A stretch of 64,000 bases of DNA, from positions 1-64,000 of the forward strand of contig CALWKW010000006.1 in assembly GCA_944381365.1 (NCBI GenBank), read 5' to 3'. Positions 730-54,086 of this stretch are shown here, in pieces. The stretch's first letter is position 1; each line of letters starts with the position of its first letter. The translations under genes were made by a program, and so were the position numbers. The DNA is from an uncultured Christensenellaceae bacterium. Lineage in GTDB: Bacteria; Bacillota; Clostridia; Christensenellales; UBA3700. The notes below the pieces were generated by a model that worked only from the letters and a program-made list of their open reading frames with translations, had not been told where the DNA came from and made no database searches.

Positions 730-768
730 TATTTATATAATTTAAGCCTTAGGTAAATTATATAAATA
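730..768 (+). repeat. Intergenic dyad repeat, copy 1
   Basis: Perfect 15-bp inverted arms, TATTTATATAATTTA (730-744) and its complement (754-768), flank the 9-base centre AGCCTTAGG. It belongs to a four-copy family (also 20149, 39368 and 54048) and has the same orientation as copy 4. Confidence 0.85.
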
Positions 769-20148: not shown

Positions 20149-20189
20149 TTATATATACAATTTACCTAAGGCTTAAATTGTATATATAA
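20149..20189 (-). repeat. Intergenic dyad repeat, copy 2
   Basis: Perfect 16-bp arms, TTATATATACAATTTA (20149-20164) and complement (20174-20189), flank CCTAAGGCT, the complement of the centre in copy 1. It lies between two convergent genes and their terminators. Confidence 0.85.
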
Positions 20190-39027: not shown

Positions 39028-39552
39028 TATTTGTCTTAAAATCAAGTTTTATTGTATTTTCATTAAATGACTTGCGGTGGGCAATATTACAAAATCTCTC
39101 ATTTTGCGATTATCTATCTTTTACTTAATTGAATTTTAAAAGCCTATATATTAAACTTCAAGGCAAATTTTATCTATCGATACTTTTATCGATTAATAAA
39201 AAAATGTCAATTCTAGCCCCTTACAAAGCCTTAAAAATCGTATTATGAGATAATCATATTCTTTATCACTCTTTTAATTACATGCCTTTATTATGCAAAA
39301 TTGACTATTAAAATCTTTATTATTTCAAAATACGATATTTATATTATAATTAAATATGCTTATTATACTATTTATATAATTTACCTAAGGATTAAATTAT
39401 ATAAATAGCGAGCTTTTTTCTATTTTCCATACCTTCATAATTTGAATAATTCAAAAACAAAATAGTCTTTATCAAATTTAATGCCGACTTATTTAATGAT
39501 ATCGTATAGACATATTAAATCTTTCGAATTCGAATCAAAATAACAATTAAAA
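39028..39552. other. AT-rich intergenic region with a dyad repeat
   Basis: I see no gene in these 525 bases between two convergent genes. The only structured elements are the dyad repeat at 39368-39408 and the flanking terminators. Confidence 0.6.
39368..39408 (-). repeat. Intergenic dyad repeat, copy 3
   Basis: Perfect 16-bp arms, CTATTTATATAATTTA (39368-39383) and complement (39393-39408), flank CCTAAGGAT. Orientation is as in copy 2; the arm sequence is as in copy 1. Confidence 0.85.
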
Positions 39553-39596: not shown

Positions 39597-40502
39597 TTAT
39601 TTATTGAGTCCGTTAAGGTCTTCGGCGGTAATCTCAGCATTGCCATAGGTATATTTGCTAAGACATGTCTGCTTACAGCTTACCTTGATGCCTACTGATG
39701 CGTGATAACCTGAATATATTTCTGTTCTTCTCCACATTGTAATTTTTTTGAGTCCGTCAATCTCTTTTACTGCAAAATCGATTGTGACAGCATCATTCTC
39801 AATAGCAAAACCTTCTTCTTTAGCTCCTGTTTGATTGAGAAAATCGTCAAGAGCCACCTTTTGAATTGTGGTCATCATTTCATGAGTGCAATCGAATGTG
39901 ATAGAGAAATAATAAGTATCTCCTACCTTGTATATTTTATCGTCATGCTTGGGAGACAAGTAATCTCTTTTTGAAAAATCGTATGTGGTAATTTGCTCTT
40001 TCATGAGATAATTCTCATTTTCTACATCACCTTCAAAGGCCTTGAAATCGCCCCAATCCTTTGTAGTAAGAGTGTTTGTATCCTTATTGAATGTAATATC
40101 TCTTTTTGAAGTATTGTTTGTATAATAAGCATTTGTTCCGTCAAAATAATATTTTTTAGAGCAAGAACCACTATCAAGCTTTGTGCCGTATATAATTTCC
40201 TGTGAATAAATCTTGTCATCTACTACTTTGCGAATGAGATGTGTATCTCTTGTAGCCACAGTACCATTGTTTGCCTGAAAAGTAAATCTTTCGTCACGCA
40301 CATAGTTGGTGTCCTTTACCCAATTATTGTATGACTCGATAAACAAATCATAAGCACTTCCCTCTACGACTGTATTTTCATCATACTTTGCAAAATTGGG
40401 GTCATCGATATCGAGATTTGTAGCTTCCACACAGCCTACCATAGCCAACAAGCTCACGAACACGGTTGCAACAACCGCTATAATTGCTATAAATTTTTTC
40501 AT
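39597..40502 (-). CDS. Lipoprotein of unknown function
   Basis: The signal peptide ends in the lipobox AMVGC, with C24 as the lipid anchor. The 278-residue mature part is Asp/Asn/Lys/Thr-rich and strand-forming, like outer-face lipoproteins of the LolA/YceG-like size class, but I do not recognise a domain. It is monocistronic, with a strong promoter overlaid by a 14-bp dyad, so its expression is probably tightly controlled. A ribosome site (GGAGGGG) precedes the ATG. Confidence 0.75.
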   Translation of the reverse strand: MKKFIAIIAVVATVFVSLLAMVGCVEATNLDIDDPNFAKYDENTVVEGSAYDLFIESYNNWVKDTNYVRDERFTFQANNGTVATRDTHLIRKVVDDKIYSQEIIYGTKLDSGSCSKKYYFDGTNAYYTNNTSKRDITFNKDTNTLTTKDWGDFKAFEGDVENENYLMKEQITTYDFSKRDYLSPKHDDKIYKVGDTYYFSITFDCTHEMMTTIQKVALDDFLNQTGAKEEGFAIENDAVTIDFAVKEIDGLKKITMWRRTEIYSGYHASVGIKVSCKQTCLSKYTYGNAEITAEDLNGLNK

Positions 40503-40523
40503 ATCCCCTCCTGATATATGTAA

Positions 40524-40564
40524 AATAAGCGTATAATATTATTAAACAGAATTATACGCTTATT
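40524..40564. promoter_or_regulatory. Operator-like 14-bp inverted repeat around the -10 box
   Basis: AATAAGCGTATAAT (40524-40537) and its perfect complement (40551-40564) are separated by 13 bp. One arm fills most of the -35/-10 spacer and the other covers the expected start of transcription. Confidence 0.6.
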
Positions 40565-40569
40565 GTCAA
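40541..40569 (-). promoter_or_regulatory. Promoter of the lipoprotein gene
   Basis: On the minus strand, TTGACA (40569-40564), a 17-base spacer and TTTAAT (40546-40541). Confidence 0.6.
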
Positions 40570-40640
40570 TACTTTGATTTGATTGATTTGAAATTTGCAG
40601 ATTTTTTGTTGCATTTTTACAATAAACCTACACAACTTTG

Positions 40641-42596
40641 TTAAATTTTATATTTTTCTATTCTGCATTCAAAAGGCTTTAATGTCATTTTGTCATATTC
40701 GACAGCTTTTGAATTGTGATTGATGATAAAGTAAGCTCCGTATTTTTCATTGCCTCGTTTTACTACTTCTACTCCTTCGGGGCTGAATATCTTTAAAATC
40801 TTTGCGTCTTTTATGATATCGTCAACAATGTCGCTCAAAAGACTTTCTTCAAGCGATGTGCCTATATAGTAGACACAGCCTCTGCTGACTTTGTTTTTTA
40901 ATACTGCCGAATACTCTTGATAAAATTCGTCTTGGTACTTATAAAGTGTCTCGGCGGTAGAAGGCACAAGCATATCTCTGAATACTCCTGCTCTGCCTGT
41001 CTTTCCTGCTTTTTCACCTACTCCCTGCAAGACAAAACTGTCATGTTTGTCCACGCATTCGCATTCTTCGACATAGCATCCCGCAAGTTCATCCAAATCT
41101 ACAGGTATGAGTTTTCCCAAAGTAAGATTGTTGTCTCTGTCCTTTACTGCTGTACGATATGTCATTATGACTATACCGCCGTTTTCCAAAAAGGTTTTTA
41201 TCTTGTCCGCCATAGCCTTATCGCATACGGTGAGCGATGACAGCACAACCACCTTGTATCCGCTCCAATCTCTGTCTGAAGGAATGATATCCGTCATGAC
41301 ATTTTTATCATAAAAAGGCTTATAAAGTTTTTTCATTTCGCTTTGACTGTCAAAGAGAATGCTTTGAGGCTGCAATCTCATAGATGCCAAAGAATCAAAA
41401 TCATAAACAAGAGCCACATCGCTTTTTATAGGGCTTTCCAAAATATCTTCATATTTTTTTGCCGTCTCAAAAAACTCTTTTGCTTCAAAAAATTTTCTTT
41501 TGGGAACATTGCTGCTGTCAAGTATGCCATAACAGAATTGTTCGGCACCCTTTGTACCCTCTCTGTATCTAAAATACATAAGTCCGTCAGCACCTCTCGC
41601 CACTCCCTGATAGCTCCACATCTGAGCTTGTCTGGGACGAGGCAAAAATCCCATATAGTTGTGTCCTTGAGCTCCCATTATTGCTTCGGTAATCAAAAAG
41701 TTTTCGCCTTTGAGTCCTCTTATATAATCCAATCCGAAAGCTATCTCATGAGGAGGGATAGGCGTCATCTGCCCTCCCCATACGGGATAATTGTTGTATG
41801 CCGCCTTGTCGATATGTTTTGAAAGAGAAGAATAGTCTACGCTTTTGTCAAGTCCGCCCCCCGGGAAATCGTGAATTACCACTGCATCGGGAATTATCTC
41901 TTTTATAATCTCCGCCTGCACACGCAAAAAATCCTCGATATTTTTGCTGCAAAATCTCTCAAAGTCCAACCTCAAAGAAGGATTGTGCGTAGTGATAGTA
42001 TTTGAGGGCAAAGGAATTTCTTCAAAAGAATTGTATTCCTGACTCCAAAAAGCCGTGCCATACACATTATTCAATCTGTCGATATTGCCCTCGTATTTTT
42101 TTGCCAAAAATGCGTCAAATTTATTTTTGCACTTTTCGCACCAGCAAACATCACTTCCCTCATGTCCCAATTCGTTGTCTATCTGCCATGCTATGATGTC
42201 AGGCTCGTTTTTATAATGACTTGCCAAAGCTCTTACTATCTTTTTGCAATATTCGATATATACTTCGCTGCTAAAACAAAAAGTGTGTCTTCCGCCAAAG
42301 ACTCTTTTGCCGCCGTCTTGTTCTTCTTGCAAAACATCAGGATGCTTATGAACAAGCCATGCGGGAGGAGTAGCTGTCGGAGTACCGAAAATCACTTTGA
42401 GTCCTCTTGCCTTTGCTTTTGCGATTATGTCGTCAAAATAGCTGAAATCGTATTCGCCTTCACTCTTTTCCATTCTGTGCCAAGCAAATTCGCCTATTCT
42501 TATCACATTGCAGCCAAGCTCGCAAATTCTGTCGAGATCTCCGTCTGCCATAAGTTTTTCCCATTGCTCGGGATAGTAATCTACTCCAAGTAACAT
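40641..42596 (-). CDS. Glycoside hydrolase family 42 beta-galactosidase
   Basis: The 651-residue protein starts with GVDYYPEQW, typical of GH42. The acid/base is E142 (IDNELG), the likely nucleophile E304 (LITEA), and a zinc cluster is formed by C107, C151, C153 and C156. It lacks a signal peptide, so it acts on imported beta-galactosides or arabinogalactan oligosaccharides in the cytoplasm. The GPH transporter gene lies directly upstream (97 bases), and both are on one strand, so import and cleavage are probably coupled. Confidence 0.93.
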   Translation of the reverse strand: MLLGVDYYPEQWEKLMADGDLDRICELGCNVIRIGEFAWHRMEKSEGEYDFSYFDDIIAKAKARGLKVIFGTPTATPPAWLVHKHPDVLQEEQDGGKRVFGGRHTFCFSSEVYIEYCKKIVRALASHYKNEPDIIAWQIDNELGHEGSDVCWCEKCKNKFDAFLAKKYEGNIDRLNNVYGTAFWSQEYNSFEEIPLPSNTITTHNPSLRLDFERFCSKNIEDFLRVQAEIIKEIIPDAVVIHDFPGGGLDKSVDYSSLSKHIDKAAYNNYPVWGGQMTPIPPHEIAFGLDYIRGLKGENFLITEAIMGAQGHNYMGFLPRPRQAQMWSYQGVARGADGLMYFRYREGTKGAEQFCYGILDSSNVPKRKFFEAKEFFETAKKYEDILESPIKSDVALVYDFDSLASMRLQPQSILFDSQSEMKKLYKPFYDKNVMTDIIPSDRDWSGYKVVVLSSLTVCDKAMADKIKTFLENGGIVIMTYRTAVKDRDNNLTLGKLIPVDLDELAGCYVEECECVDKHDSFVLQGVGEKAGKTGRAGVFRDMLVPSTAETLYKYQDEFYQEYSAVLKNKVSRGCVYYIGTSLEESLLSDIVDDIIKDAKILKIFSPEGVEVVKRGNEKYGAYFIINHNSKAVEYDKMTLKPFECRIEKYKI

Positions 42597-54047: not shown

Positions 54048-54086
54048 TATTTATACAATTTAAGCCTTAGATAAATTGTATAAATA
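54048..54086 (+). repeat. Intergenic dyad repeat, copy 4
   Basis: Perfect 15-bp arms, TATTTATACAATTTA (54048-54062) and complement (54072-54086), flank AGCCTTAGA. It lies inside the iol operon, between iolJ and iolC, and would fold as a hairpin in the transcript. Confidence 0.85.

Follow-up and report, generated by a model that had tools for sequence, protein, structure and literature searches.

A perfect inverted repeat around the −10 box of a lipoprotein gene promoter: a possible lineage-limited, single-target operator in an uncultured Christensenellaceae bacterium

Introduction

At single-target repressor operators that overlap a sigma-A promoter, the bound protein excludes RNA polymerase. 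Another described arrangement is the PurBox pair of Bacillus subtilis PurR, which, according to PMC8789054, consists of inverted 14-bp boxes that are AT-rich around a CG, with a CGAA core and 16–17 bp between them, and which in the pur operon lies just upstream of the −35 box.

The DNA analysed here (the window) is a stretch of 64,000 nucleotides from an uncultured Christensenellaceae bacterium (contig CALWKW010000006.1 of assembly GCA_944381365.1; genome G000 below). In this window, a perfect inverted repeat surrounds the −10 box of a lipoprotein gene. A first-pass annotation of the sequence had proposed that a dimer or pair of dimers bound to the repeat would block RNA polymerase. With somewhat less than even confidence, we read the locus as a sigma-A-type promoter of a LolA/LprG-like lipoprotein gene that carries a lineage-limited, single-target operator-like dyad.

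Promoter and Repeat Architecture

The lipoprotein gene (39597–40502, minus strand) encodes a 301-residue protein with a signal peptide with Cys24. On the gene strand, its upstream region reads TTGACA (40569–40564), 17 bases, TTTAAT (40546–40541), a ribosome-binding site, AGGAGGGG (40505–40512), and the ATG. By these boxes, it is a sigma-A-like promoter, TTGACA-17-TTTAAT, on the minus strand. The −10 box was assigned from the consensus, and an alternative, TTAATA (40540–40545), has an 18-bp spacer; the transcription start was likewise predicted from the −35 and −10 boxes. Of 27 orthologous genes, that of the window among them, 22 have TTGACA within the last 110 bases upstream; within the genus, 14 of the 15 orthologues have it, G006 being the exception.

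The repeat has the form AATAAGCGTATAAT / 13 bases / ATTATACGCTTATT, with all 14 of the 14 arm bases paired and a distance of 27 bp from centre to centre. The proximal arm (40551–40564), which reads AATAAGCGTATAAT on the gene strand, fills most of the −35/−10 spacer and shares one base (40564) with the −35 box. The 13 bases of the repeat centre (40538–40550) contain the −10 box, and the distal arm (40524–40537; ATTATACGCTTATT on the gene strand) lies over the predicted start. The perfect 14-bp arms, their spacing and their placement in the spacer and at the start of transcription, as described in the first-pass annotation, were all borne out (14/14 match between 40524–40537 on the plus strand and 40551–40564 on the minus strand). 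The span of 40524–40569 given there holds a real repeat, which stops at 40564; the remainder of the span takes in the −35 box. Nor was a regulator gene seen beside the repeat: the flanking genes are a GH42 beta-galactosidase with a Pfam match (40641–42596, minus strand), an MFS_2 sugar transporter and a 557-residue protein without a Pfam match over the cut-off. The GH42 gene is upstream of the lipoprotein gene and co-directional with it, and its stop codon is 76 bases ahead of the proximal arm.

A Pfam search with the lipoprotein gave zero family matches, and the NCBIfam matches of eight aligned members were weak and agreed in no family. The AlphaFold model (8 sequences) has a mean pLDDT of 81, and in a Foldseek search it resembled LolA and LprG (best E = 9e-5), which suggests a LolA/LprG-like fold class. 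The fold is suggested rather than proven, since, within the top three rows, those for LolA/LprG have TM-scores of only 0.22–0.47, and other beta-barrel proteins are also among the matches.

Chance Expectation and RNA Folding

None of 400 dinucleotide shuffles of the region 40503–40640 produced a perfect repeat of at least 14 bp (loop 3–40), the longest being 11 bp, and none arose in eight shuffles of the whole window. RNA of the region folded better than 198 of 200 shuffles, and RNA of the bare repeat element better than 200 of 200. Local chance is therefore an unlikely source of the 14-bp symmetry. Extrapolation of the shuffle tail gives an estimate of ~5e-5 such repeats per intergenic region, or a few per cent per genome. 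Still, scanning many regions will turn up repeats as striking as this one, and this repeat was picked out of the whole window for its strikingness. The latter point favours a coincidental symmetry, in which the AT-rich promoter is conserved as such, and the 14-base complementarity between its spacer and start region is fortuitous, without the symmetry being read. The local shuffles argue against such a coincidence and for an operator, as does the exact placement of the arms around the −10 box in the case of the operator.

The real window contains seven perfect repeats of at least 14 bp (loop 3–40), which are the lipoprotein-promoter repeat, two repeats read as terminators and four members of an unrelated palindrome family. 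The family palindrome has 39 bases, with 15-bp arms that flank a centre of 9 bases (CCTAAGGCT, CATAAGGCT and the like). Its four copies in the window (730–768, 20149–20189, 39368–39408 and 54048–54086) are outside the listed main ORFs, and 5 of 15 others fall inside some open frame of at least 60 codons. With at most one mismatch, the palindrome core was found 23 times in G000, 17 in G015, 13 in G007, 18 in G010, once (diverged) in G005 and not at all in G034, against 0–2 for the reversed control. Among the matches listed, one G000 copy is on contig C1 and the rest are on C2, C3 and C6, and at least one place, 54048–54086, is common to G015. All 15 pairs hold in 24 of the 24 copies read, which were selected with a core in which the five inner pairs are fixed, and three pairs have changed on both sides together (C-G/T-A, 19:5; T-A/A-T, 17:7 and 15:9). 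The family has the look of a hairpin or dyad under selection, and it is possibly a chromosome-organisation or recombinase site; matches to the Y1 transposase (PF01797) were few and partial.

The folding of the region also bears on an explanation at the RNA level, in which a hairpin in the GH42 read-through RNA ends or damps transcripts and thereby insulates the lipoprotein promoter. The whole stem has a folding energy of −14.3 kcal/mol (z = −6.1). This is close to the −15.3 and −14.4 of two hairpins in the relatives G007 and G010, which are GC-rich, precede T runs and lie between GH42 and the promoter. No such hairpin was seen there in G000 or G015, so that hairpin and repeat would replace each other, on the basis of this one contrast. 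Within short flanks, GH42 adjoins the lipoprotein gene in 4 of the 28 loci examined, namely, those of these same four genomes. However, the whole −14.3 stem is followed by TTAC, and the T-rich tail follows only the core (TTATTTTA), which at −8.4 kcal/mol comes 46th among the window's 123 candidates. While 4 of 24 terminator candidates at −11 or better are located in coding sequence, the proportion is 21 of 44 at −8.4 or better, and most of the added candidates are therefore background. As a GH42 terminator, the repeat has a background-level score. Furthermore, the 13-base loop is long and the stem in G015 reaches only −9.3. An Rfam search gave no match at E ≤ 1 in 40300–40800 and none over the gathering cut-off in the window. 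Overall, we consider a read-through hairpin unlikely.

Search for Further Sites

The first-pass annotation had suggested searching the genome for the 14-mer to define a regulon. At up to one mismatch, this search returned only the two arms, and GCGTATAAT-N13-ATTATACGC at up to three mismatches matched solely the lipoprotein promoter. Half-sites at up to two mismatches were at the control level in G000 (32, the two arms included, versus 31 for the reversed pattern), and numbered 48 versus 41 in G015. A pattern with shorter arms and a flexible gap, GCGTATA-N8..32-TATACGC, gave 17 forward matches and 20 control matches in 17 genomes of the genus. There is thus no sign of a regulon sharing the 14-mer, which counts against an operator and is what a coincidental symmetry would lead one to expect.

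Half-sites at up to two mismatches exceeded the reversed control in G007 (41 versus 22) and, among the matches listed, in G010 (58 versus 35), although the repeat is absent from both; this excess possibly reflects composition.

The two inverted 14-bp arms, AT-rich with a CG at the centre, recall the PurBox pair described in PMC8789054, and raise the possibility of a PurR-type repressor bound to such a pair. However, the core here is GCGTA, not CGAA, the spacer is 13 bp, not 16–17 bp, and the best match to TIGR01743 (PurR) in the genome scores 67.9 bits (cut-off, 258.7). The PurBox identity was rejected on these three defining features (core, spacer and PurR gene), and we regard it as highly improbable.

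The orthologous lipoprotein gene of the sister genus g4 carries a dyad-like element of a different sequence, GCCRCAAATTTAACG...GGC, ~15 bases upstream of the −35 box. It stands upstream of the lipoprotein orthologue at loci L005, L008, L010 and L014, and a search gave one match per genome in all four g4 genomes covered and no match in G000 or G015. By eye, it could also be seen at further orthologues (L056, L057, L061 and L063), but not at L071 or L073, the G019 orthologue (g4) or the second G032 copy. Since the g4 element occurs once per genome, a single-site control element at the lipoprotein gene is not odd in itself. This softens the argument from the absence of other sites and lends some support to an operator in the window. 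A bolder proposal from the same sequences is that the gene is under private single-target control, with its control site replaced wholesale between the sister genera. Such turnover would have left a dyad ~15 bases upstream of the −35 box in the majority of the orthologues seen in the sister genus and the −10-wrapping repeat in two species here; we consider it rather improbable.

Conservation among Orthologues

The lipoprotein was searched for in 59 genomes, 27 of which, G000 included, gave a match; these comprise 15 of the 16 other genomes of the same genus. The repeat sequence is kept upstream of only one of these 15 orthologues, that of G015, and imperfectly. The G015 block is identical to the window at 54 of 56 bases, and its two changes are both in the proximal arm and uncompensated, so that 12 of 14 pairs remain. 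In G007 and G010, the homologous promoter is gapless and retains 5 of 14 pairs. The repeat is lost or absent in the other 14 of the 15 same-genus orthologues and in all six further orthologous loci, and no perfect repeat longer than 8 bp was found upstream of orthologues in the 26 regions besides the window or in the six further loci. The G015 lipoprotein is 83–84% identical to those of G007 and G010 and 59% identical to that of the window. Because the G015 protein is nearer to G007 and G010 than to the window, the repeat would have been either lost in G007 and G010, gained twice or exchanged.

We considered the possibility that the match in G015, which stands at 54/56 in spite of the low protein identity and in this respect favours an operator, reflected exceptional conservation. 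Between the window and the G015 contig C7, however, 12 of 25 aligned non-coding clusters, that of the repeat included, have a 40-column window with at least 36 matches; in the 33–48 kb part, ten clusters, again including that of the repeat, reach 52/56. (This background counts only alignable intergenic stretches, and the hand-made coding list omits small ORFs, so that unannotated genes may be among the clusters.) Equal whole-block conservation between G000 and G015 is seen in further blocks immediately ahead of genes. The G015 match is thus ordinary for promoters of this species pair and is no argument for the symmetry as such, and exceptional conservation was dropped as proof of an operator. 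The first-pass annotation had held that its proposal would be refuted by the absence of other sites in the genome together with a lack of conservation upstream of orthologues. The former was observed in the searches above; the latter is nearly the case, with the exception of the imperfect and, for the pair, ordinary match in G015.

This pattern weighs on both of the leading explanations. The ordinary conservation of the whole promoter block, the uncompensated changes in G015 and the few pairs in G007 and G010 all favour a coincidental symmetry, while the survival of 12 pairs in a second species counts against it. For an operator, the same losses, the confinement of both G015 changes to one arm and the number of equally conserved promoter blocks are all unfavourable. 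Taken together, coincidence is nearly as likely as a single-target operator.

As a possible origin of the present symmetry, template-switch correction of an imperfect repeat was considered, and the two variable proximal-arm positions were compared visually with those of G007 and G010. In G015, one of them seems to be derived and the other is ambiguous; this candidate was rejected because a single event would not account for both. Weaker DNA matches to the 56-bp block were found in G010 (two), G007 and G013, with no matching repeat seen at a promoter. Those in G010 and G007 resemble the distal arm alone, and are located upstream of the start of a 248-residue membrane-peptidase-like gene and beyond the end of a D-Ala-D-Ala-carboxypeptidase-like one (both named from reading the ORFs).

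Two other features of these relatives were observed. By eye, the G007 and G010 loci (L052 and L053) have a small hairpin at the predicted 5′ end of the lipoprotein message (GTACGC TAT GCGTAC and GTATGC TCCC GCGTAC), a place taken in the window by the distal arm. In G015 (L051, 12918–14001) and G007 (L052, 11725–12001), a CRISPR-like tandem array with a ~66-base period and the repeat GTTTTAGTTCCCTTTTGTTGTTTGGTATGGTATAAT adjoins a zinc-ribbon membrane gene.

Comparison with Known Systems

The symmetric site at the lipoprotein promoter overlaps the promoter elements (spacer, −10 box and start region), which fits an operator; the site is rare in the genome and is present in one sister species. On the operator reading, a repressor would bind both arms, either as one dimer per arm or as two joined dimers, and would keep RNA polymerase off the −10 box. 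The distance between the arms, ~2.6 helical turns and thus non-integer, argues against this arrangement. If true, the operator reading would provide this uncultured lineage with a first control site at a gene for a LolA/LprG-like lipoprotein, and would be an instance of operator turnover between sister genera, small and traceable at one conserved gene. If false, the locus shows how a striking promoter repeat can lose support once relatives are compared.

Like an intrinsic terminator, the repeat forms a stem-loop past the end of a gene, with a T-rich sequence downstream of its core; unlike one, it has a weak core, a 13-base loop, a position on the promoter of the next gene and a background score. 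It also differs from the B. subtilis PurBox pair in wrapping the −10 box instead of lying just upstream of the −35 box, where PMC8789054 places the pur operon boxes. Compared with known single-target operators, it is set apart by its spacing of 27 bp centre to centre, its lack of an identified regulator or a second site, and its lack of conservation across the genus. What it has in common with single-target sigma-A operators is the stretch that it covers, from the spacer through the −10 box to the start region.
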